From a virus, in IMG/VR virus record IMGVR_UViG_3300031227_000243, positions 1 through 32,172 of that record: a DNA stretch of 32,172 bases; one strand, given 5' to 3'. The notes under the pieces were generated by a model. It had not been told where the DNA came from, did no database searches, and saw only the letters and a list, made by a program, of their open reading frames with translations. Below are positions 1-29,420 of the stretch, in pieces (the stretch's first letter is position 1; every line of letters begins with the position of its first letter). A program made the translations under genes and the position numbers.

Positions 1-832
1 TATGTTCTTTATCAGCAATCATACCTACACCACGCCAGTGAATACTCCCTATTACCGAATAATAACCAGTAACAGGAACTACGAATTTGTAGTCAGCAAA
101 ATTGCCTCCTGGGTCATAAGTTTCAGTATCAAGAAGAACTTTAGTTGCAGTAGAATCGGTCAAATTTTCTTGATTCGTTGATAAAGAAACCCTACATTTG
201 GCGGTGGTAGATAAGACTGTTGCTTTTGCCGCATTGCCATCTTTAATAAGTAGGCTGTCGATAGTTACTCCTGCCGCTCCTGTTTTTTCGTTAATAGTAT
301 CGGTAGTAACCTCGCTGTCTTTGAGTAGTACACCATCTATTGTTACTCCTGCCGCCCCTGTTTCTTCATTTATAGTGTCTGTGGTAACTTCACCATCTTT
401 AAGGAGAACCCCGTCAACAGTTACTCCCGCCGCACTTGTCTTTTCGCTAATGGTGTCGGTGGTGTGAGCGCCCAACTGGCTATGTTCTGCCAATATCCCA
501 TCAACCAAATCGCCCCAACCTTTATTAGTAAAGAGGATTTCTACTACCGCTCCTGCTGAATGGGCTTGGGCTGTTCCCTCTGCCCCTCTCGTGCAGGTAA
601 CTAAGTTTGAGCCAGAGACAACGCCGATAACCGACTCTTCTATGGTTGGTGTCTTTGTGCCATTAGCATCTACTCGGTCAATTACTGCTACAACGGATGT
701 ATCGGTAGGAAGGTTGGTAGAAGAGGCTAAGGGGACAGTAGTAACCGAGGCGTCAGCTACTCCACCCGACCCGATTGAGCCAACCCACTTACGGGCTAAT
801 TTCTTAAATAAATCTGTGTTTAAACCAGGCAT
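1..832 (-). CDS. Tail fibre/spike-type virion protein, 3' end cut by window edge
   Basis: The frame is open from ATG at 832 to the window edge, giving at least 277 residues. I see an N-terminal region (about 1-120) rich in S, T, V and G. Three 26-residue repeats follow, with the pattern TDTI-E-T-AAGVTIDG-LLKD. The visible C-terminal part (GYYSVIGS-HWRG) resembles the beta-jelly-roll (C1q/TNF-like) tips of phage fibres. The gene is last in the tail gene order, after the nozzle-like protein, which fits a fibre or spike. Family knowledge: such proteins contact the host surface. No Shine-Dalgarno sits before the ATG; a terminator hairpin and six U residues lie directly upstream, as at three other virion genes. 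Fibre function is inferred from order and composition. The true C-terminus is not in the window. Confidence 0.7.
   Translation of the reverse strand, partial: MPGLNTDLFKKLARKWVGSIGSGGVADASVTTVPLASSTNLPTDTSVVAVIDRVDANGTKTPTIEESVIGVVSGSNLVTCTRGAEGTAQAHSAGAVVEILFTNKGWGDLVDGILAEHSQLGAHTTDTISEKTSAAGVTVDGVLLKDGEVTTDTINEETGAAGVTIDGVLLKDSEVTTDTINEKTGAAGVTIDSLLIKDGNAAKATVLSTTAKCRVSLSTNQENLTDSTATKVLLDTETYDPGGNFADYKFVVPVTGYYSVIGSIHWRGVGMIADKEH
250..470 (-). repeat. Three tandem 78-nt repeats in the fibre gene
   Basis: The plus-strand string GTTACTCC/CGCCGC recurs at about 264, 342 and 420, a spacing of exactly 78 nt (26 codons). The copies differ at many third positions and at some residues (E/N, K/E, G/S), so they are old in-frame duplications. 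Inferred role: a repeated structural unit in the fibre shaft or linker. Confidence 0.85.
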
Positions 833-833
833 T

Positions 834-902
834 AAAAAAGGATGAGCCACTCAATTAACGAGCTACTCATCCAACCCGCCACTCTTGCGGGTAAAGATAA
901 CT
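834..902 (-). ncRNA. Two-hairpin leader RNA with intrinsic terminator (L1)
   Basis: Hairpin 1 (892-874) pairs ACCCGC with GCGGGT around an AAGAGTG loop. Hairpin 2 (872-840) pairs GGATGAG(T) with (G)CTCATCC and has an inner CTC/GAG stem with loop GTTAATT. It is followed by TTTTTT (839-834), and the fibre ATG starts 2 nt later. The layout is promoter, two hairpins, terminator, start codon. Cassette L2 at 3637-3706 has the same loops with compensatory stem changes. The product may be a short terminated RNA of about 70 nt, or a readthrough-controlled leader of the fibre mRNA. Confidence 0.75.
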
Positions 903-908
903 ATCTTC

Positions 909-937
909 ATTATATATTGATAACAACTTACTGTCAA
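909..937 (-). promoter_or_regulatory. Sigma-70 promoter before the fibre gene (cassette L1)
   Basis: On the minus strand TTGACA (937-932) and TATAAT (914-909) are both perfect, with a 17-nt spacer. The TGA inside TTGACA is the stop codon of the upstream nozzle gene. The predicted start of transcription is near 902. Confidence 0.85.
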
Positions 938-2949: not shown

Positions 2950-3636
2950 TTAAACACCAAAACCATCCTCTTCCCTATTGCGGAGGGAAGTATCCTCGTA
3001 AAAAGAGGGCATCATGTTTTTAGTTCGCATTGCTTCCAGTTTTTGAGTAGCAATTACCGATGAGGTCGTATCTCCCTCGTCTTTCCTTAACTCCGATAGG
3101 GCGTAAAAGATAGCAAACATTGGGTCAGCCATTTCAAACTTGTCAGTTGCCGCCGAAAGAGCGGTAGCGTTCTTGTAATACTCATAGGCGATTGTATCTC
3201 CTGTCGTTAAAGAGAGGTCGGGATTAAAGTGAATGTCAAAACCCGCAGAGACATTGCCAGTAAAGTAACACCATTTAGAAGAATTATCATCATAAAGGCT
3301 AACATCAGTAACGGGGATAACCTCATAGTATGAAGATACACCGCTCGGTGAAACAAGCCTTACCTTGCCAACGACAAACCTAAAGTCGGTGGGGCAGTCA
3401 TAATCCCAAGTAGAGGCGGCGATAGTGGTATCGCCATCAGCGGCATTGGCAAGGGTAGCATAAAGTTCTCTCCAAAGCATCCCTTCCTCGCTTTCCCAAA
3501 TGTTGATAGCGACATTAAACAAAGAAGTCCAGAGGACATAGGTTTCATCTCCGGCTGTAGGGTCGGTATCGTCCTGCTCGTAGAGAGAGTTTAGATAGGT
3601 AATTGCGTCTGATAGTGCTGAAATAATTGCTGCCAT
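2950..3636 (-). CDS. Head-to-tail connector / tail-tubular-A-like protein
   Basis: 228 residues from ATG 3636. An in-frame TTG start at 3657 would extend it, but that would translate the terminator hairpin, so ATG is preferred. Its start (IISALSDAITYLNSLYEQDD), a beta-rich middle (DCPTDFRFVVGKVRLVSPSG---YYEVIPV) and a helical end (PMFAIFYALSELRKDEGDT) resemble small adaptor proteins that sit between portal and nozzle. Its place directly before the nozzle-like gene supports that. The ATG abuts seven U residues of the L2 terminator, and no Shine-Dalgarno is present. Function is inferred from position and general architecture. Confidence 0.5.
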   Translation of the reverse strand: MAAIISALSDAITYLNSLYEQDDTDPTAGDETYVLWTSLFNVAINIWESEEGMLWRELYATLANAADGDTTIAASTWDYDCPTDFRFVVGKVRLVSPSGVSSYYEVIPVTDVSLYDDNSSKWCYFTGNVSAGFDIHFNPDLSLTTGDTIAYEYYKNATALSAATDKFEMADPMFAIFYALSELRKDEGDTTSSVIATQKLEAMRTKNMMPSFYEDTSLRNREEDGFGV

Positions 3637-3706
3637 AAAAAAAGACGAGCTGCCCAATTAACGGGTTACTCGTCTAACCTACCACTCATGTAGGTAAAGA
3701 TTAACT
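3637..3706 (-). ncRNA. Two-hairpin leader RNA with intrinsic terminator (L2)
   Basis: Hairpin 1 (3695-3677) pairs ACCTAC with GTAGGT around ATGAGTG. Hairpin 2 (3675-3643) pairs AGACGAG with CTCGTCT and has an inner CCC/GGG stem with loop GTTAATT. Seven T residues follow, and ATG 3636 comes immediately after. Compared with L1 the loops are kept, while stem pairs change on both sides (C:G to U:A, G:C to A:U, U:A to C:G). Confidence 0.75.
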
Positions 3707-3712
3707 AATACT

Positions 3713-3742
3713 ATTTTACTATTTATACCGCCCTACTGTCAA
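3713..3742 (-). promoter_or_regulatory. Sigma-70 promoter of cassette L2
   Basis: TTGACA (3742-3737), an 18-nt spacer and TAAAAT (3718-3713). The -35 box lies in the last codons of the 1176-residue gene, whose TAG stop is inside the spacer. Predicted transcription start is near 3706. Confidence 0.75.
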
Positions 3743-6700
3743 GGTGGGGGTTTTGCCAATCTTGATAGTCGGTGCTTTATAGGTAGGCATTGATATCTTT
3801 GTTGCCTTTCGAGCGGTTGTTTTTAAGGTGGGCGGTTTGGCTATCTTGAGAGCGGGGAGTTTGCTTTTTCTCGTTGTTCCCGATACTTTCAGTTTAGGGA
3901 TAGTTACTTTTTTAATGGTGATCGCTTTTGGTTTCTTAGCCTTTGCTCCCCCCTTGCTCGTGCCAGTATAGCCCCAGACATTGAGGCCGAGGTTATCCTC
4001 TAAGTATTGAGCAACGCCCTTTGCCCCCTTAGTAATGACCTTCTCATCCCAGAGGCGGTTGACCATTTCCTGCCGTGCCTTATCGTCTAAGCCCTCGAGC
4101 GTTTCGGCAACCCACTTAGCCCTGTCTTCTACTAATTGACCGCCACCGGATTTATAGGTGCTAATATGGATGTCAAGCACTTGGTCAGGGTGTTCTTTTT
4201 CAATCCTTTTCTTTAAGGCAATGGCTTTGTCCATATCCGCTTTTACATCTTCTACATCGGTAGAAATCAATCCGTGTTCAATCTTCAATCTCTTATCTCC
4301 ATATCTGTCGATTGTCCCCTGAGCATTTTTATAAAGAACCCCCAGGTCTTCCGTGCTTTCTGGGAGGGCAATTTTGATTGTAGACTGAATTTTTCCTGCT
4401 GGGCTTATCTTGAAACCTTGTTTCTCCCGACTAATCCTTAAAGGTGAAATGGCATTAAGAAAGGGTAGGTCTCGCTTAGATATTTCCCCTTGCGGAGTAG
4501 TATATGGCTCAACCATTTTTGATACGAAGGGAATTTGTGTCATAATGCTCTTGGTTGCTTGGCTAACTACTCCGCCCCCCGATGATTTTCTATAAACAGG
4601 GTCTACTAATCTGGCAATCCAACCTTGTAAGGCACGATAGGGGATTACCTGTGAGGGAATATTTGATAGCGCCCTTCCTTGTTTAAACTCATCGCCTCTA
4701 ACCGCATCAATAACATCTCCTATCCCCTGCATATACGATTGATCGGCAAAGAATTGTAAAAATCCCCCCATTCCTATTCCTACTTGTTTCAGAAAATTCT
4801 CCTCTGCTCCATTGTCTTTTGCCCATTTCATTGCCGAAGCCATTGCCATAGGGTATGATAATGGCCCTAATTTAGAATATGAAACCCATTTGTCACCTAT
4901 CTTTACCGAATACGGCTGTAGTCCTGCCGCATAAAACTCTTGACGCTTCTTAGAGCTTGTCGGAGTGTCCCAAGTGGTTAATCCACTGTTAGCAAGAGCA
5001 TAAGCCCCTGCAAAAACGCTTGTCCCGATAATTGCTTTTGATAACTGTTCTAATGGTTCTTTTGCTCCAGGGATCGTTGCTACTCCCAACGGAGAGTATT
5101 CTACCCCTTGTTTTAGGATATTGGTTGGTGTTTGTAGGAATGGCACTACCCACTTTCCGCCAGGTAGTCGTCTTAAACGGCTTATTCCTACGTTCCACTT
5201 ATCCCAAAGTTTTAATAATCCTCCCTGTCCTAACTTCCCATCAGGATCAAATGCCTGTCTAAAAAGCGTATATTCTGCCGAAGCCTCTGCTTTTTTAGCA
5301 ATCTGTGTTGTCGTCAATACAGTGTCCTTTAATGCTCTTTTCTCGCCACCTATTACCAGTGCCTTGAAGAATTGATCGGATGCCTCTAATGCCCTTAGTG
5401 GTGTTGTAAATAACTTGTGAACCCTACCTGTTCCCGTAGGGATAAAGTCAATATCTGGTTTTCTTAACCCACCTTCTCCCGCCATTGTTGACCTAAAGTT
5501 TGTCCACGCCTCTGGCAATGATTTCCAATATCCTTTGGCATAATCGACCCCTTGTCTGGCAAAGTATTTTTGTTCACTACCCGTCAGCCGTGATCTAACC
5601 CAATCAAGTTGGCCGGTTATTGTTTTTTCCACTGGTTTGACAATAGCACTCTGTAAGAAATTGCTAAAGGTATTGCTAAGATGGGTGTTTGGGCTGGAGA
5701 GCATATTTACATAACGATACTCCTGTAGTTTCTCGGCAAAGGTAGCTGGTTTGAATTTGCGGTAAAATTCGGTTACTTGGTTAGCATCATTCCAATCAAC
5801 TCTCTTTCCAGCTTCTACCAGTCTTTTTGTCTCAATACCCAATGCCTTCAAATCTTTTATTATTGCCTGTTTAATCCCTACATCCTCAGCGTTGACCGCA
5901 AAAGACCTTAGTCTGCGCCCTGTGTCTGCCGCCGTTGAAGATAGAATGTCTATTTGAGAAAGATACTCTGGGGTAATTCCCTTCTTGCCACTGGCGGTTT
6001 TCAGGTAATTGCGAGTAGCTTGTAGTTTTGAAGAAAATTCTGCCGCCTCTTCCCGACCCATAACTTTTCCCAAAACATCTGCTTTTCTTCCGTTCCTGAT
6101 TATCTCCTCGTCGGTTAAGGGCATCCCCTTCCTTTGTTCTAATATCGGTCGCATCTTCTTCACAGTAGCGTCTAACTTTTGGGCTGGTTCACCCGTCAGT
6201 CCCAGCTTCTTTTTGTTGATATTGAAGGCATATTTCTCATCTCGTGGTATAATAACTTCTGATGGAGAAACAGCCTTTTTTAATCCAGCTTCTGCTCGGA
6301 CTTGTGGCAACTCCTCTGCTCCTTTTATTCGGATTGACGGTAGTGGCTCTGATATTTTCTTTCCTATCTTCACTGATGGCCCTACTCCTTTAGTGACTTG
6401 GTTGTAGAAGTCTTTAATCGCCTCTTCACCATGTCCGTATTTTTTAGCAAAACTTTCTATTATCTCGGGTTGAAATCTTGTTCCTATTGCCACTTCTGCC
6501 AAAAACCTATCTTCTTTTGGCAATGACCTTATTCCCGCCTCTGCTGTTCTTGCACCCCTCGCTTGTTCCGCAAGGTCTTTTAGTTTCTTAGTAAAATCTT
6601 CCGCACTCTTATACTTCCGTGCCTCTTTAGCAAGCGACTCTAAGCCTTCCGGGATAGCTTCCTTTGCTCCTTTTTCACCTATCTCTTTTGCCGCCTTCTC

Positions 6701-7261: not shown

Positions 7262-8422
7262 TTATGCCATCCATGCTGGATTACTAAATAGTTGCTTTTG
7301 TTTTTCATCTTCCTGATTAGAACCGTAATATCCTGGCACGTTTATATTCCCCTGTGCCCCCATTTGAGGCTGTCCCGCTATTGCTCGAGGAGCTTGGGGT
7401 AGTTGAGGATTAAATCCTTGCACTCCCTGCATATTGGCTCTTACTTGTTTAATATCGGAAGCGTTGCTCAAAGCCCATTCTTCAAGTGCCGTCCTCTTGT
7501 TTTTTTCTTCTTCTTTAACAGCATTAAGTTGGTTAATAGCGTTGTTGAGTAGGTTTTCGGATAGGCTTTTTAAGTCGAGACCTTTTTCCAATTCTCCTCG
7601 TCCCTGAGCATCTCTTATTTTATTTTGGGCGTCGTGAAACCAAGAAGCAATCCCCATTATCTTCTGGTTCTTCAATTCGGTAAGGTTATTAGTTTCATCA
7701 GTGTAGATATTCTGGAGCTTTGCTTCTCTATCGCCAATCTCTTTTTGTATATCGGCGGTTTGCCTCATTACGTCCCCTCTTTGGCGAGTGCCCATCTTGG
7801 TTAAGGCATAAGAGTATTGGTTAGCGGCTGAACTATCGCCTGCTCCCTGTGCCCCTAAATAGACATTGCCAGCCATAAAAGAGTTTCTAAGGTTAGAGGA
7901 AATGTCACGGAGGTTTCTTGCTTGGCCTTCCGTTGCTCTTTCTCTTTGTCTGCCGAGCAGTCCCATTCCTTCTGTCCTTTGTGAACCAAGACCTGCTACT
8001 CCCTGCCTGTATTGACTTTCAGCAATTCCCTTTTGAGCTGTTTGTTGAGCAGGCAAACCCTCGTTAAGCATTGTGTTTAGTTGGTTGAAGTAGCCAGAAT
8101 AGCCTGACTCTATTTCACCTCTTGCTTGCTGTTCTCGTTGCTGAACGGCTAACTCTTCTGCCGAAGGGCCACCGCCTCCGCCACCGTCTCCACCGCCACC
8201 ACCATCGCCACCTGTTGGTGTTGGTGGGGTATAAGTGCCTCCACCGCCACCCGTTGGTGCTGTCGTTGCTCCAAGAACACTCCCTGTTGGTGCTGGTGTA
8301 AATCCACCACCTGGGTCATATGTGCCAAAGCCACCTGGGCCTGGCCCAGAATAGCCCTGTTCAGTTGTTCGAGTTTGTTGATACCCTGGAGTTGTCCAGG
8401 GATTTGTGTCCCATAACGCCAT
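7262..8422 (-). CDS. Glycine-rich, coiled-coil virion protein
   Basis: 386 residues. Residues 1-90 are a flexible Gly/Pro/Thr linker with runs of glycine (GGGGG, GGGGGG) encoded by GGTGGC-type triplets. Residues 90-330 are predominantly helical and Gln/Glu/Arg-rich, with coiled-coil character and several 'LGRQRERATEG'-like segments. The C-terminus is Pro/Gln-rich. It lies 12 nt before the giant virion protein and both share cassette L3, so an internal or ejection protein is likely. The ATG at 8422 has no Shine-Dalgarno: the upstream sequence is A-rich and follows a three-codon mini-ORF (8452-8441) after the L3 terminator. No known family is recognised. Confidence 0.6.
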   Translation of the reverse strand: MALWDTNPWTTPGYQQTRTTEQGYSGPGPGGFGTYDPGGGFTPAPTGSVLGATTAPTGGGGGTYTPPTPTGGDGGGGGDGGGGGGPSAEELAVQQREQQARGEIESGYSGYFNQLNTMLNEGLPAQQTAQKGIAESQYRQGVAGLGSQRTEGMGLLGRQRERATEGQARNLRDISSNLRNSFMAGNVYLGAQGAGDSSAANQYSYALTKMGTRQRGDVMRQTADIQKEIGDREAKLQNIYTDETNNLTELKNQKIMGIASWFHDAQNKIRDAQGRGELEKGLDLKSLSENLLNNAINQLNAVKEEEKNKRTALEEWALSNASDIKQVRANMQGVQGFNPQLPQAPRAIAGQPQMGAQGNINVPGYYGSNQEDEKQKQLFSNPAWMA

Positions 8423-8452: not shown

Positions 8453-8522
8453 AAAAAAAGCCCCCACGACAAAGTCGTGAGAGCTAACGCACTACTCTAA
8501 TGGTAGCCGAAAAGCTTACTTA
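8453..8522 (-). ncRNA. Leader RNA with hairpin and intrinsic terminator (L3)
   Basis: A small hairpin (8506-8492: CTAC, loop CATTAGA, GTAG) is followed by a terminator stem (8485-8459: AGCTCTCACGAC, loop TTT, GTCGTGGGGGCT). Seven T residues follow (8459-8453), then ATGAGATTGTAA, a three-codon mini-ORF placed after the G-rich stem. The layout matches L1 and L2 but the stem sequences are unrelated. Confidence 0.7.
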
Positions 8523-8528
8523 ATACTA

Positions 8529-8558
8529 ATTATATAACACTTTATTTATCCTTGTCAA
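8529..8558 (-). promoter_or_regulatory. Sigma-70 promoter of cassette L3
   Basis: Perfect TTGACA (8558-8553), 18-nt spacer, perfect TATAAT (8534-8529). The -35 lies in the codons for Leu-Asp-Lys at the end of the preceding glycosyltransferase gene. Predicted transcription start is near 8522. Confidence 0.85.
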
Positions 8559-20809: not shown

Positions 20810-20868
20810 AAAAAAGACACCCCCTAAAGGAGTGCCTTACATCTGCATTAGAGCAGTATCGGTCTTAC
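20810..20868 (-). ncRNA. Leader RNA with hairpin and intrinsic terminator (L4)
   Basis: Hairpin 1 (20856-20843) has CTGC paired with GCAG around TCTAAT. Hairpin 2 (20836-20816) pairs GGCACTCC with GGGGGTGTC around TTTA and is followed by six T residues (20815-20810). The G-run of the terminator (AGGGGG) is the only Shine-Dalgarno-like sequence near the portal start, so folding could also hide it. Same order of parts as L1-L3. Confidence 0.7.
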
Positions 20869-20873
20869 CTATA

Positions 20874-20903
20874 ATCTTACTATATCAAACCCCACCTTGT
20901 CAA
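20874..20903 (-). promoter_or_regulatory. Promoter of cassette L4
   Basis: TTGACA (20903-20898), 18-nt spacer, TAAGAT (20879-20874), just after the stop of the small gene at 20910. Predicted transcription start is near 20868. Confidence 0.7.
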
Positions 20904-20909
20904 CAAGCC

Positions 20910-21107
20910 CTACATTTTATACCTAATCCGCTTGTTCTTAACAATGTTCAGCGTTTCTATATGAGCCTCGCTATCCTTGAGAATAACATTGAAAGTTATC
21001 TGTCCGTACTGCGTCTGTCCCACCTCATTCTCAATAATGATGTGAAGTGGTAGATTTGGCGACAACAGCTTTCTTAAATCCGAGATACTTTCGCTTGACA
21101 TCAACAT
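20910..21107 (-). CDS. Small beta-rich protein, paralogue of the gene before it
   Basis: 65 residues. 'NLPLHIIIENEVG' and 'QITFNVILKDSEAHIETLNIV' align with 'NIPAHLDIERDIK' and 'LFTFTLRINGGNIVDYSLMEYV' of the preceding gene, so the two are tandem copies of one small beta-strand-rich fold. The start (ATG 21107, or ATG 21101) overlaps the preceding gene by about 70 nt in another frame. It lies between large terminase and portal. Function unknown. Confidence 0.6.
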   Translation of the reverse strand: MLMSSESISDLRKLLSPNLPLHIIIENEVGQTQYGQITFNVILKDSEAHIETLNIVKNKRIRYKM

Positions 21108-21261
21108 ATTCCATTAGACTGTAATCTACTATATTACCACCATTAATCCTTAATGTAAAAGTAAACAAGCCATTCTTCTTCAACTTTATATCCCGCTCAA
21201 TGTCTAAGTGGGCAGGGATATTATGCTCACGGATAGAGAGTTCATATTTAGTAGAAGCCAT
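21031..21261 (-). CDS. Small beta-rich protein between terminase and portal
   Basis: 76 residues from ATG 21261, or 79 from ATG 21270; both overlap the end of the large terminase gene. Alternating hydrophobic residues ('FTFTLRINGGNIVDYSLM') suggest beta strands. Paralogous to the next gene. Overlap at both ends points to translational coupling within the packaging operon. No known family. Confidence 0.65.
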   Translation of the reverse strand: MASTKYELSIREHNIPAHLDIERDIKLKKNGLFTFTLRINGGNIVDYSLMEYVDVKRKYLGFKKAVVAKSTTSHHY

Positions 21262-22423
21262 CGTTGTCAAACATTTTAGTATCGTCCGGTATCTCTCCCT
21301 CCTCCTCTCGTGGCTTCAAGCTCTCCATTCCGTACCGCACCGCGTCCATCGCATCGCTAAAGATGTGTTCGGGAACATTGATTATCTTGCCGTCCCTATC
21401 AGTTTCCCAAAGATAATTACGATAAGATTTAAGAACATTGAGGCTTCTTTTAGTAACTGATATCTTTTGGTCTTGAACATACTGAATGCCCTGTGAGACG
21501 CTCCCTTGCCCCTTCTGCGCCCCAATTATGTTCACGCCGTATCCCCGTATCTCGTCAATGCTCTTCGGTTCAGCACTATCGGCAATCGTCAAGGTATCAC
21601 TGGAGTTTAACAGGGTATCAGCAATCTGCTTGTTTGCCATTCCCTTTCTATGAAGTATCTCATCTAAGATAAAACCACCATCGTATCGGTATATTGCCAC
21701 TATTGAGGTAGGGTCGTTACTATACCCAAAGTCAAGACCGTTCCTCTCCAACCTTGCCTCGTGGGGTATCTTACTAATTGTCTTCCAACCGGTAAATATC
21801 CGCCCCTCTGCTTCCCCTAACAGTCCTAAACCATACACTCGCCACCAGTTCTTATTGCCCTTCCTTGACTCAATCGTCTTGACAATGTTCTCGTTGAGGC
21901 GCTCGTTGTCTTTATAGGTTAAAGTGATAAAATCACAGTCAACCTTGCCATGAACCTCTGTGTACCACCAAAACTCACTAACAGGGTTCCAGTCCAGCCA
22001 AACTATCTTGCGTGTTCTTATTTCTAACTGGGTATAGGTTTCAAAGGAGATGTTGTTCGCTTCGTTGATAAACAAAACGTCTCTTCTCGGCCCCCTTACT
22101 TTACCCGGTTGGTCGGCACTAAAAAACTCAAGCATTGACTCTTTCTCAAAAGTATAAACATAGTCGGTCTTATTCCACTGCTTGTCTTTGAAGTAACCAT
22201 GCTCTTTCATGATGCTCAAGAAGTCTCGGATAACGCCACGCTTGAGATGAGGGAAAGACTCGGAGACTACCGATACTAACTGCCCCTTAGTTGCTTGGCA
22301 GTAGTCTATCAGCCAAAGCATTATGCTGACAGTCTTAGAAGCGCCCGTACCACCGGCTACTCCCCTAATCCTTTTGGTTAGTTCAAGAAGTTTCTTGGTC
22401 GCTGTTGTTTGCGTGTATAACAT
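21248..22423 (-). CDS. terL: Terminase large subunit
   Basis: 391 residues. Walker A 'GGTGASKT' (24-31), Walker B 'VLFINEA' (116-122) with catalytic Glu 121, coupling motif near 'RTRKIVWLDWNP', and a RNase-H-like nuclease domain with acidic residues in 'LDFGYSNDP' (D231), 'ADSAEP' (D282) and 'IFSDAMDAVRYG' (D357/D360). This is the motor and nuclease that packages DNA into the head through the portal. The start overlaps the small subunit gene by 41 nt. Length fits the shorter phage TerL group. Confidence 0.95.
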   Translation of the reverse strand: MLYTQTTATKKLLELTKRIRGVAGGTGASKTVSIMLWLIDYCQATKGQLVSVVSESFPHLKRGVIRDFLSIMKEHGYFKDKQWNKTDYVYTFEKESMLEFFSADQPGKVRGPRRDVLFINEANNISFETYTQLEIRTRKIVWLDWNPVSEFWWYTEVHGKVDCDFITLTYKDNERLNENIVKTIESRKGNKNWWRVYGLGLLGEAEGRIFTGWKTISKIPHEARLERNGLDFGYSNDPTSIVAIYRYDGGFILDEILHRKGMANKQIADTLLNSSDTLTIADSAEPKSIDEIRGYGVNIIGAQKGQGSVSQGIQYVQDQKISVTKRSLNVLKSYRNYLWETDRDGKIINVPEHIFSDAMDAVRYGMESLKPREEEGEIPDDTKMFDNDGFY

Positions 22424-25553: not shown

Positions 25554-25838
25554 AATCTCCTTAATCTTAGCGTTTAGTTTCTTGACGGCTTGGTTATACT
25601 CTTCTCTCTCTCTAACCGTTTCTGGAGACATTGATGGTGTGTGGATGACCATTTCTTCCATCTCCAACCCCTTCAAAATCTCCTCTATTTGGCGGCGGTA
25701 AAAATCCTTAATATGCCCCATCGGCCCAAGAGCAGTTCTATAATCCGAACTCATGTGAATAATTGTATTAAAGAATCGTCTAAACTTATAATCAAACCTT
25801 TTTTCTATCCCCTTAATCGTTGGTGGTTTTTTAGTCAT
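25542..25838 (-). CDS. Small helical protein, last gene of the junction-cassette array
   Basis: 98 residues. 'RFDYKFRRFFNTIIHM', 'FYRRQIEEILKGLEMEEM' and 'REREEYNQAVKKLNAKIKEIKKD' are long charged helices. Begins MTKKPPT after a cassette with a full GGAGAG ribosome site and a 4-nt ATGA overlap. Its end overlaps the plus-strand terminator. Function unknown. Confidence 0.65.
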   Translation of the reverse strand: MTKKPPTIKGIEKRFDYKFRRFFNTIIHMSSDYRTALGPMGHIKDFYRRQIEEILKGLEMEEMVIHTPSMSPETVREREEYNQAVKKLNAKIKEIKKD

Positions 25839-25864
25839 TTTGTTTTCTCTCCTTTCTTGAGGGA
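25833..25864 (-). repeat. Junction cassette copy, ribosome-site form
   Basis: CTCAAGAAAGGAGAG followed by AAAACAAAATGACT. Upstream gene reads it as ...SLKKGEKTK-stop; the downstream gene starts at the ATG (ATGA overlap). Confidence 0.9.
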
Positions 25865-26146
25865 GGATAAAAATCTATCCCTAATACCATTTCTAATATG
25901 TTTAAAAGCCTTCCACTCTTCCAGGGTAGTATCTCTGTAAGATAGTTCCACCTCGTCAATAAATTTAACTATCCTCCCCACCACTTCATCCTCTTTGGCT
26001 TGGATAGCTCGGATTACAAAATACCACATATTTTCATATACAATATCCCACATTTTATATTTAACAATACCTCTTGTGTTGCCATATCGCATAAAACCAA
26101 ATTGTTTCTTAAACTCCACTTTCAACTCTTTCTTTGTTTCAGTCAT
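25835..26146 (-). CDS. Small helical protein of the junction-cassette array
   Basis: 103 residues. 'FKKQFGFMRYGNTRGIVKYKMW' at the start, then 'VIRAIQAKEDEVVGRIVKFIDEVE', a segment also found in the gene at 27202 ('ALQAKEEEVVGRIETEM'). Ends SLKKGEKTK. MTETKKEL start. Helical, charged, possibly DNA- or protein-binding; unknown. Confidence 0.65.
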   Translation of the reverse strand: MTETKKELKVEFKKQFGFMRYGNTRGIVKYKMWDIVYENMWYFVIRAIQAKEDEVVGRIVKFIDEVELSYRDTTLEEWKAFKHIRNGIRDRFLSSLKKGEKTK

Positions 26147-26160
26147 TTTGTTTTAGGTAA
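26124..26160 (-). repeat. Junction cassette copy, 8-nt overlap form
   Basis: TTACCTAAAACAAAATGACT plus GAAACAAAGAAAGAG. Upstream gene reads YLKQND-stop in a different frame from the GEKTK form. Confidence 0.9.
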
Positions 26161-26438
26161 TTATCAATAACTCGGTCTAAGTCCTGCAAGCAACCATCAG
26201 ACCAAAGCTCAACGGTAATTCCTTTCCTTACCGCCTCCCCCATCTCCTCCTGTTGCTTTTTAAGAAGTTGAGAGATAAATCGTTTTAAGTTTTTAATCAA
26301 TAGCATTTTCAACTTGCTATGGTCTTCTCCTCCAACCCCTTTAACATAAATCTCATCACAAATTAACCTAATCTCCCCACCGATACTATTTTGCTTATCT
26401 AAAAGGTCTTCTCGCCAGTCTTTCTTTACTTTAGTCAT
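26139..26438 (-). CDS. Small protein of the junction-cassette array
   Basis: 99 residues. 'LLIKNLKRFISQLLKKQQEEMGEAVRKG' is a long helix whose 'KKQQEEMGE' matches 'LKQQRKEMGKE' in the next gene upstream (26431). Ends 'DNYLKQND'. Start MTKVKKDW. No motif of known function. Confidence 0.65.
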   Translation of the reverse strand: MTKVKKDWREDLLDKQNSIGGEIRLICDEIYVKGVGGEDHSKLKMLLIKNLKRFISQLLKKQQEEMGEAVRKGITVELWSDGCLQDLDRVIDNYLKQND

Positions 26439-26452
26439 TTTGTTTTAGGTAA
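26421..26452 (-). repeat. Junction cassette copy, 8-nt overlap form
   Basis: TTACCTAAAACAAAATGACT then AAAGTAAAGAAAGA. Same upstream half as the copy at 26124-26160. Confidence 0.9.
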
Positions 26453-26718
26453 TCTTCTATTGCTTCCTTCATTTTTCTTTCAGTAATCATCCAGCCATCA
26501 TCAAGGATACTTTGGAGCTCGCAATAAAGCTCTTTCCCCATCTCCTTCCGTTGCTGTTTGAGGGCTTGGTCAAGTTCCTCTTGGTCGTACATCCTAATCT
26601 TGGAAAAAGTCACTCTTTTCTGGTGTCGCTTACAGTTATACGCCGTGTTACCACCACGGTTTCTTTGAACCCTTTTGCAATATCCACACTCTCTCAACTC
26701 TTTCTTTGTTTTAGTCAT
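26431..26718 (-). CDS. Small protein with Cys/His pairs, junction-cassette array
   Basis: 95 residues. 'ECGYCKRVQRNRGGNTAYNCKRHQKRV' contains CxxC, then a Cys and a His, a likely zinc finger near the N-terminus. A helix 'LDQALKQQRKEMGKELYCEL' follows, and the end is 'EDYLKQND'. It shares its helix and tail with the gene at 26139, so they look like mosaic relatives. Possibly binds nucleic acid. Confidence 0.65.
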   Translation of the reverse strand: MTKTKKELRECGYCKRVQRNRGGNTAYNCKRHQKRVTFSKIRMYDQEELDQALKQQRKEMGKELYCELQSILDDGWMITERKMKEAIEDYLKQND

Positions 26719-26744
26719 TTTGTTTTCTCTCCTTTCTTGAGGGA
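26701..26744 (-). repeat. Junction cassette copy, ribosome-site form
   Basis: CCCTCAAGAAAGGAGAG, AAAACAAAATGACT and AAAACAAAGAAAG: the most complete copy (about 44 nt), almost identical upstream to the copy at 25833-25864. Confidence 0.9.
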
Positions 26745-26900
26745 ACTTGCATCGGGGCTTGCCAGCCTATCCCTAACATCAAAAAGTACTTCACTTAAAT
26801 TATCAAAAGCACCGGCTAGTTCTGTAATCAAATCAAGCAAAACCATTTCAAGCACTTCATTAGATGGCTCCCCTCCTAGCTCTTTCTTTGTTTTAGTCAT
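26715..26900 (-). CDS. Short acidic/helical protein of the array
   Basis: 61 residues. 'LEMVLLDLITELAGAFDNLSEVLFDVRDRL' is one long amphipathic helix pair, suited to dimerisation. MTKTKKEL start and SLKKGEKTK end are both derived from junction cassettes, leaving only about 45 unique residues. Function unknown. Confidence 0.6.
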   Translation of the reverse strand: MTKTKKELGGEPSNEVLEMVLLDLITELAGAFDNLSEVLFDVRDRLASPDASSLKKGEKTK

Positions 26901-26914
26901 TTTGTTTTCTCTCC
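26882..26914 (-). repeat. Junction cassette copy, ribosome-site form
   Basis: AGGAGAG, AAAACAAAATGACT, AAAACAAAGAAAG. Upstream gene ends ...ERGEKTK. Confidence 0.9.
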
Positions 26915-27205
26915 TCGTTCTAACTCCTCTAATGACATTTTTTTAAGTGCAGCCAACCACTCTCTAACGCTCTGTTGTGTCGCTTCCCTAGTTAATGCAA
27001 AACCACTTCCAGCAACCATGCCATCATAATCAAATAAACCCTTTATATGCTCAACCATTCCGCATTTCCTCAACCCATCCATTACTTTCTTAATTCTTTT
27101 TCTTGGCTCACCTGTGTTTTTCTCAAAATAACGATAATAATAAGCATCCTCATCACTATCACCAAATAATTCAAGAATTTTTATTTTTAGTTCTAAATCT
27201 GTCAT
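26897..27205 (-). CDS. Small winged-helix-like protein
   Basis: 102 residues. 'IKILELFGDSDEDAYYYRYFEKNTGEPRKRIKKVMDGLRKCGMVEHIKGLFDYDGMVAGSG' runs helix, helix, recognition-helix-like segment, then beta hairpin, similar in order to winged-helix DNA-binding domains ('R-IKKVMDGLRK-GMVE'). Starts MTDLELK, the only array member without MTK. May be a regulator. Inference from pattern only. Confidence 0.6.
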   Translation of the reverse strand: MTDLELKIKILELFGDSDEDAYYYRYFEKNTGEPRKRIKKVMDGLRKCGMVEHIKGLFDYDGMVAGSGFALTREATQQSVREWLAALKKMSLEELERGEKTK

Positions 27206-27231
27206 TTTGTTTTCTCTCCTTGCTTGAGGGA
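27200..27231 (-). repeat. Junction cassette copy, ribosome-site form, downstream half lost
   Basis: CCCTCAAGCAAGGAGAG and AAAACAAAATGAC are kept, but after ATGAC the sequence is unrelated (AGATTTAG), so the conserved unit can end at the start codon. Confidence 0.85.
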
Positions 27232-27654
27232 ATTTAAATATATAAGAACATCATCAAGCGTGTCATCAACTACCTTATGGGCGAATCTCTCCTTTGCCGT
27301 TTTCGGTGGCAACCCAACAATATATTTAGGCCACACGCACCGACCGCCACCCCCTCTCCACTCTTTCATTTCAGTTTCTATCCTCCCCACCACTTCCTCC
27401 TCTTTGGCCTGAAGAGCTTTTTCTATAAGCGGCCAGTATCTCTCAACCTGTTCTCTATCACTATCTTTTTCTTTTTCGGTTAAGTCTTTATAGTCTGTAG
27501 CGATTTGTTTATCCCATCTCTCTAAAACTTTCTCTAATTCAGGTGATGGGCAATTTTCTCTTAATACTTTATGACACCATTTTTGCCAATCAGCCCATCT
27601 TTGATGTTCTATATTAGCCAGTTTTTCTTTTAACTCTTTCTTTATTTTAGTCAT
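27202..27654 (-). CDS. Largest array protein, Trp-rich
   Basis: 150 residues. 'NIEHQRWADWQKWCHKVLRE' (several Trp), 'KVLERWDKQIATDYKDLTEKEKDSDREQVERYWPLIEKALQAKEEEVVGRIETEM' and 'VGLPPKTAKERFAHKVVDDTLDDVLIYL'. The 'W-x-W-x-x-W' start resembles a phage family with a conserved N-terminal HQRW-DW-K motif. The 'QAKEEEVVGRI' block is shared with the gene at 25835. Ends SLKQGEKTK. Function not known. Confidence 0.65.
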   Translation of the reverse strand: MTKIKKELKEKLANIEHQRWADWQKWCHKVLRENCPSPELEKVLERWDKQIATDYKDLTEKEKDSDREQVERYWPLIEKALQAKEEEVVGRIETEMKEWRGGGGRCVWPKYIVGLPPKTAKERFAHKVVDDTLDDVLIYLNSLKQGEKTK

Positions 27655-27666
27655 TTTGTTTTAGGA
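27637..27666 (-). repeat. Junction cassette copy read in a third way
   Basis: TTCCTAAAACAAAATGACT, same bases as the 8-nt form, but the upstream gene reads it as ...FPKTK-stop (4-nt overlap). Shows that the DNA, not the peptide, is what is kept. Confidence 0.85.
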
Positions 27667-28939: not shown

Positions 28940-29406
28940 TTTTCTTTTCTTTCAAACAAATCCTCATATATCTGCGCCTTAGTCTCATGGATAGCATTGC
29001 TTACAACCCTGTCACACTCATCTGTCATCCCCTTGCCGATAAAAAATACTGGCTTGCTTTTCTTTACTATACCCTTCATTTCCTTTTCACGGGCTTGGAG
29101 GGCTTCTTTTTTCCCTAATTCATAAGCATTAACCATACCACGCAACATAAATAGCTTTAACGTTTTGACACCAGCCAGTCTTGCCAAATCGAAATCAACA
29201 ATTCCTGGCTTGCCTTGGGTAGATAGTTTCTCCAAAAGACTCTTTGCTTTTTCAACCAACTCTTTTTCCTCTGGTGATACTTCCTCTCTCAACTCTTTTT
29301 GTGTTTTCATAGTTTTGTTTTCTTTAGGCTTCAAATCTGGTCGCCTAATCCCTTCATATATATCTTTCTTGCTCCAATCTATTCCCACTTTCTTTGTTTT
29401 GGTCAT
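28936..29406 (-). CDS. Apparent fusion of two cassette-type genes
   Basis: 156 residues. Part 1 (1-32) starts MTKTKKVG and ends 'DLKPKENKT'. At residue 33 a second cassette-like start appears, 'MKTQKELREEVSPEEKELVEK' (ATG 29310), preceded by AAGAAAACAAAACT, a damaged copy of the junction sequence in which the stop is gone. Part 2 has helices 'KAKSLLEKLS' and 'ALQAREKEMKGIVKK', similar in style to other array genes, and 'FFIGKGMTDECDRVVSNAI'. Alternative: the true start is ATG 29310. Function unknown. Confidence 0.6.
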   Translation of the reverse strand: MTKTKKVGIDWSKKDIYEGIRRPDLKPKENKTMKTQKELREEVSPEEKELVEKAKSLLEKLSTQGKPGIVDFDLARLAGVKTLKLFMLRGMVNAYELGKKEALQAREKEMKGIVKKSKPVFFIGKGMTDECDRVVSNAIHETKAQIYEDLFERKEK

Positions 29407-29420
29407 TTTGTTTTCTCCTC
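29389..29420 (-). repeat. First junction cassette of the array
   Basis: GAGGAG, AAAACAAAATGACC, AAAACAAAGAAAG. Here no gene end overlaps it; the upstream gene stops 86 nt earlier. Confidence 0.85.

Follow-up and report, generated by a model that had tools for sequence, protein, structure and literature searches.

Why should a strong promoter be followed by an intrinsic terminator just ahead of the first codon of a virion gene? The question is raised by two leaders, L1 and L2, in a virus record of 32,172 bp (analysed in full and called the window below), in which every nameable gene (terminase, portal, head, internal virion protein, adaptor-like, nucleotide-sugar and methyltransferase) lies on the minus strand. 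The initial annotation described both leaders as a promoter followed by a two-hairpin terminator (hp1, then hp2), placed them before virion genes, and took paired differences between their stems as a sign of selection on an RNA fold. A base-by-base check of L1 and L2 agreed with the order of promoter, terminator and start codon, and each of the listed stem changes was found in the sequence (Table 1). The genes that follow also fit: an adaptor-like gene and gene A, which looks fibre-like from repeats in its sequence, a putative function. Three tandem 78-bp repeats, 74 and 71% alike to the first, lie at window positions 240–473, as in fibre-like proteins.

Table 1. Leader cassettes and associated genes in the window
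Feature	Position	Strand	Details
Gene A	1–832	–	N-terminal 277 aa inside the window, rest beyond its edge; led by L1
L1 hp2 and T6	834–872	–	hp2 872–840, T6 839–834, ending 1 nt ahead of ATG 832–830; intrinsic terminator (fold, terminator scan, paired changes)
L1 hp1	869–897	–	UCUUU flank; stem ACCCGC/GCGGGT, loop AAGAGUG; hairpin proper 892–874 (ACCCGC-AAGAGTG-GCGGGT); covariance model R1, 37 bits
L1 promoter	909–937	–	TTGACA 937–932, 17-bp spacer, TATAAT 914–909; 12/12 consensus; start expected near 902
Adaptor-like virion gene	2950–3636	–	led by L2; Pfam SU10_adaptor E = 0.003, below the curated cut-off
L2 hp2 and T-run	3637–3675	–	hp2 3675–3643, T-run to 3637; intrinsic terminator adjoining ATG 3636–3634
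L2 hp1	3672–3700	–	UCUUU flank; stem ACCUAC/GUAGGU, loop AUGAGUG; hairpin proper 3695–3677 (ACCTAC-ATGAGTG-GTAGGT); R1, 44 bits
L2 promoter	3713–3742	–	TTGACA 3742–3737, 18-bp spacer, TAAAAT; 11/12 consensus
L3 cassette	8453–8558	–	TTGACA-18-TATAAT, hp1 CTAC-CATTAGA-GTAG, terminator, T7; before gene 7262–8422 (g386)
L4 cassette	20810–20903	–	TTGACA-18-TAAGAT, hp1 CTGC-UCUAAU-GCAG, terminator, T6; before the portal gene
Two overlapping related mini-genes	20910–21270	–	21031–21270 and 20910–21107; between terL and L4

L1 and L2 are present as placed, and the layout proved wider than this pair. A consensus promoter scan of the window also found L3 and L4, so that there are four promoter-hairpin-terminator cassettes, one per virion operon (portal, g386, adaptor and gene A), with distances of 69, 69, 69 and 58 nt from the –10 element to the T-run. 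L3 has a homologue in the nearest relative. The ATG past the L3 U-tract opens a three-codon ORF only (ATG AGA TTG TAA, 8452–8441, minus strand), and the real g386 start seems to be at 8422. In the same window scan, the top-scoring promoters found in the early region and the glycan region (31669, 31025 and 15866) had no terminator. Several small early genes at 25830–27660 and 29259–29414 (minus strand) have a common start context and N-terminus, AAAACAAAATGACTAAAACAAAGAAAGAG; this repeated start-associated sequence is accompanied by GGAGAG in some of them, and others have no Shine-Dalgarno sequence.

In L1 and L2, hp1 consists of a 6-bp stem and a 7-nt loop and is separated from hp2 by a single unpaired nucleotide (T in L1). 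Both leaders fold better than their dinucleotide shuffles (L1, z = –4.1, 0 of 200 shuffles equally good; L2, z = –3.2, 1 of 200). When they are compared with the two homologues of the nearest relative, 5 of 19 pairs are double-changed and 98.7% of cells are paired; within hp2, three pairs are double-changed. As for the loops, said to be shared, that of hp1 is kept across the family, but the hp2 loop GTTAATT is found only in L1, L2 and the nearest relative. Inspection by eye revealed neither an alternative antiterminator fold excluding hp2, hp1 and hp2 having no overlap, nor the complementarity for kissing between the hp1 and hp2 loops. A search of the window against Rfam gave no match above the gathering threshold, and L1 had chance-level matches only.

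Relatives were gathered with the major head protein (71 loci) and with a profile of gene 934–2943 (42 loci), and their cassettes occupy the same four operon positions as in the window. The distinct leaders that passed automatic criteria number 44 for portal, 28 for adaptor, 8 for gene A and 5 for g386. In nearly every relative with the 5' end included, the order upstream of portal is TTGACA/TATAAT, 45–70 nt, a stem with T5–9 and the start codon, and the T-run directly touches the start codon (0 nt) in 16 of 43 portal leaders. The association of promoters with terminators is far above chance: the 11 long records contain 46 strong coding-strand terminators, of which 28 are 47–96 nt downstream of a promoter, compared with a mean of 0.97 and a maximum of 5 for shifted promoters and with 1 of 21 on the antisense strand. 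Ten further records gave 15 of 39 (shifted promoters, mean 0.64, maximum 4). Many terminators without a promoter above the cut-off still lie where a portal, adaptor, g386, gene A or epimerase gene begins. A cassette also precedes the glycan gene in some relatives; the late-only placement of cassettes is not strict.

Neither the internal virion protein nor the exact L1/L2 DNA pattern found relatives in viral_contigs, and L1 DNA and the portal protein had no match among phage records. The major head protein shares only 24–29% identity with isolates among the matches listed; one of these, Bacillus phage Pascal, lacks a leader, its portal gene starting within the gene before it. In two relatives (G012 and G014; loci L061 and L065), homology in the major head gene is split in two by a gap of several hundred bases, which may reflect an insertion (intron or homing element).

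The initial annotation had made its reading depend on covarying homologues in related phages. A covariance model was built and searched, and such homologues were found, giving strong support. In an alignment of 18 leaders (A3: adaptor, gene A and one other; gapless over 29 columns), a hand-picked and trimmed sample that is not blind, double changes occur at all six hp1 pairs and 91.7% of cells pair. The covariation score is 0.72, versus 0.29 in shuffles and at most 0.18 with the partner slid, and there are 26 double-changed cells versus 7.9 in shuffles. The kept parts are the loop, ANRARYG, and the 5' flank, UCUUU, which is found in 15 of 36 adaptor/gene A leaders (shuffle mean 1.7) and in none of 44 portal leaders. 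With six pairs covarying over 18 leaders around a kept loop, selection on the RNA fold is borne out. Matches of model R1 to hp1 are confined to cassettes, at most two per genome, plus one weak antisense match (G022, at 4476), at which no promoter or terminator was seen and which we judged to be due to chance. R1 also matches adaptor leaders outside its training rows (G002, E = 0.002; G024, E = 0.007).

Portal leaders have a distinct hairpin, with a 4-bp stem and the loop UNURAU, often preceded by GCYRA (covariation score 0.92 versus 0.25 in shuffles; A4, 11 rows). In an unselected test of 84 leaders, which are related by descent so that its p-value is not literal, the pre-terminator segment outfolds its own shuffles (mean rank 0.23). 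Information content in the –35/–10 spacer, taken from 35 portal and 29 adaptor/gene A promoters, is at most 0.7 bits per column, and most hp1 loop positions reach 0.9–1.6 bits. By its pattern of variation, hp1 is a structured RNA and not a DNA operator: a double-stranded operator is rejected because the arms vary with pairing kept and the asymmetric loop is constant. A CsrA-like GGA loop was ruled out as well, GGA being present in few loops only.

Promoter, hairpin and terminator, their order, their syntenic recurrence and the covariation can all be read from the DNA itself. The polymerase must pass the terminator to transcribe the operon and, therefore, either readthrough is regulated or the terminator acts as a fixed throttle; from the fact that a specific loop is kept, we infer regulation. 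On balance, we think it probable that attenuation would keep the late operons off until an antiterminator made by the phage reads hp1 and opens them. Host RNA polymerase would start at the strong sigma70-type promoter of each late (virion) operon, the nascent leader of about 45–75 nt would fold into hp1, and by default the polymerase would stop at the intrinsic terminator (hp2 and the U-tract) beside the first start codon. At a late stage of infection, a factor made by the phage would recognise hp1 in the nascent RNA, through the loop ANRARYG and the UCUUU flank or through the portal-type UNURAU loop, and readthrough would follow. All late operons would be opened together, and early promoters, having no terminator, would fire at once. 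Efficient termination, regulated readthrough and a trans factor that reads hp1 are predicted, and partial constitutive readthrough may occur at the cassettes. It is uncertain that a single factor reads every hp1 type, because hp1 differs between operon classes and the hairpins of several distant relatives match neither type.

Lambda-Q and 21-Q families (PF06530 and PF03589) had no match in 20 and 25 records, in searches in which controls matched; 82-Q (PF06323) had none either, but no control matched in that search, so this negative carries no information. The two mini-genes between terL and L4 are present in nearly all relatives covering the region and match each other by profile, and their position before the portal cassette recalls the place of Q in lambda. 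One member of the family weakly matches DUF2292, and the second mini-protein has a basic tail, TLNIVKNKRxRYK. The protein encoded at 20910–21107 has no Pfam or PDB sequence relative, and its structure model, although confident (pLDDT 86), has no fold match in the PDB. We regard the pair as speculative candidate regulators. A tentative extension, which we would call possible rather than probable, is a new class of RNA-guided late antitermination, in which a small phage protein, perhaps the mini-protein pair, would read the covarying hairpins and open every virion operon across a widespread family of uncultured phages.

Several other readings of the cassettes have to be weighed. Passive attenuation or insulation, in which the terminator stops transcription arriving from the operon before it and holds the output of the next promoter at a constant level, would leave hp1 only to stabilise the RNA 5' end or to set a pause. 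There are few other strong coding-strand terminators, so those of the cassettes could end operons, and 5' hairpins are well known to protect mRNA. We nevertheless consider this reading unlikely: it leaves unexplained both the kept 7-nt loop with its UCUUU flank and the position of the terminator after, not before, the promoter at every late operon. A second possibility is that a Q- or AlpA-type protein binds promoter DNA, loads onto the polymerase while it is paused close to the promoter, and then reads through the terminator, with hp1 as the pause hairpin. The layout equals that of lambda pR' and of AlpA targets, and, as in Q-dependent late antitermination, late genes here lie beyond a promoter that has an intrinsic terminator close behind it. 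However, no conserved DNA element was found in or near the spacer of the 35 portal and 29 adaptor/gene A promoters compared, and this spacer is the binding place of AlpA; PF06530 and PF03589 relatives were not found, and the conserved part is an RNA hairpin. Such a mechanism appears distinctly improbable here.

It is very unlikely that the main product is a trans-acting RNA of ~65 nt (hp1 and terminator), with the downstream genes expressed from other promoters or by leakage. Promoter and terminator do delimit a small transcript, but the cassette keeps to the same four operons, and in many leaders it adjoins the start codon, which argues for action in cis, and the several copies per genome differ and have no long sequence in common. 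We see even less chance of put-like cis antitermination, in which hp1 and hp2 RNA would bind the polymerase directly with no phage factor. The cassette has two adjacent stem-loops with a one-nucleotide spacer, about 70 nt in all and directly after the promoter, as in HK022 putL (PMC9378689), but a put-like element is made less likely by the second hairpin, which is followed by the U-tract and is itself the terminator; moreover, similarity to put was not recognised, Rfam gave no match, and a constitutive readthrough element would make the terminator pointless. Translational control, in which the hairpin beside the start codon masks or exposes the start site, hp1 binds a repressor and the U-tract serves as an S1-binding site, would fit the rarity of Shine-Dalgarno matches of at least 5 bases at cassette-led genes (9 of 81 versus 77 of 251 other long ORFs), but can be set aside as scarcely credible, given the canonical GC stem with T6–9, the fixed promoter distance and the several cassette-led genes that start 10–30 nt downstream, some with a Shine-Dalgarno sequence of their own.

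Similar leaders exist outside the family. The exact pattern of a perfect promoter, 46–74 nt and T7ATG occurs in 116 viral contigs; among the 80 examined, 62 have a terminator and 3 belong to the phage family of the window. Some 20 of those 80 have another common leader, mostly with a large gene ~40 nt further on. This leader of ~60 nt (CCGTGTGAAGGAAGCACTC...AATCAACC and a terminator) lies past a consensus promoter and before the large gene (MPLSRLDNFLKN...), at loci that include L149 (8230–8349), L155 and L174, and it is also present in cultured Kyanoviridae (Synechococcus phages such as S-B05, L274); the loci tested had no Rfam match. The similar Synechococcus phage layout suggests that the promoter-terminator logic has arisen more than once.

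To our knowledge, few models exist for late-gene switches in phages without a polymerase or sigma factor of their own. In the present case, dozens of uncultured phages retain one architecture despite sequence drift, and therefore comparison alone pinpoints the promoters, the stop signals and the RNA loop that would be recognised. The arrangement suggests that the virion genes of this family of uncultured tailed phages may stay off until RNA polymerase is allowed through the stop. A default-off late operon becomes directly testable with short synthetic leaders, and the covariance model provides a tool for annotating elements of this kind in viral contigs.

A description of the phage family with these leaders was not found in the open-licence papers searched. 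Several known systems share parts of the layout. Like the leaders described here, lambda N/nut (boxA-boxB) has a small hairpin with a constant loop and a variable stem; the short U-rich UCUUU box that precedes hp1 in part of the adaptor/gene A leaders may resemble boxA, and we take the hp1 loop sequence to be unlike known boxB. However, nut acts at early operons, on distant terminators and with Nus factors, whereas the phage cassettes stand at late operons with the terminator within a few nucleotides of hp1, and we know of no N-like gene for these phages. Lambda-type pR'/tR'/Q systems (lambda, 21, 82) likewise have a strong promoter, an early intrinsic terminator to be overcome and late virion genes beyond. 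Q is guided by a DNA element and a sigma-dependent pause (PMC7171158), whereas here a covarying RNA hairpin is conserved and there are four cassettes per genome instead of one. In Pseudomonas aeruginosa, several operons (alpBCDE, PA0807) are under one antiterminator, AlpA, with intrinsic terminators beginning as close as 26 bp past the start; AlpA binds a site between –35 and –10 (PMC7969949), a region that is little conserved in the phage leaders.

The HK022 put element resembles the cassettes in its two stem-loops, its length of about 70 nt and its place directly past, or close to, the promoter (PMC9378689). It differs in that it is factor-free, serves early genes and acts through both stem-loops on terminators further downstream, whereas in the cassettes hp2 with T6–7 is the terminator. 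ANTAR targets (EutV) have a small hairpin with conserved loop bases ahead of an intrinsic terminator, but these are hexaloops with A1 and G4, and the terminator is excluded by alternative pairing (PMC3369931); the L1/L2 hp1 loop has 7 nt, the portal loop is UNURAU, and hp1 does not overlap hp2. Mycobacteriophage SAS/ESAS elements are repeated inverted repeats just before start codons in one phage group, SAS being a conserved 13-bp sequence (PMC3203893), and they are not known to form part of a promoter-terminator cassette of this kind. The initial view that no described family has this layout has to be amended: a promoter followed by a terminator is known from lambda pR' and AlpA, and what is new is a covarying RNA hairpin signal repeated at every late operon, without a conserved DNA site in the promoter spacer.
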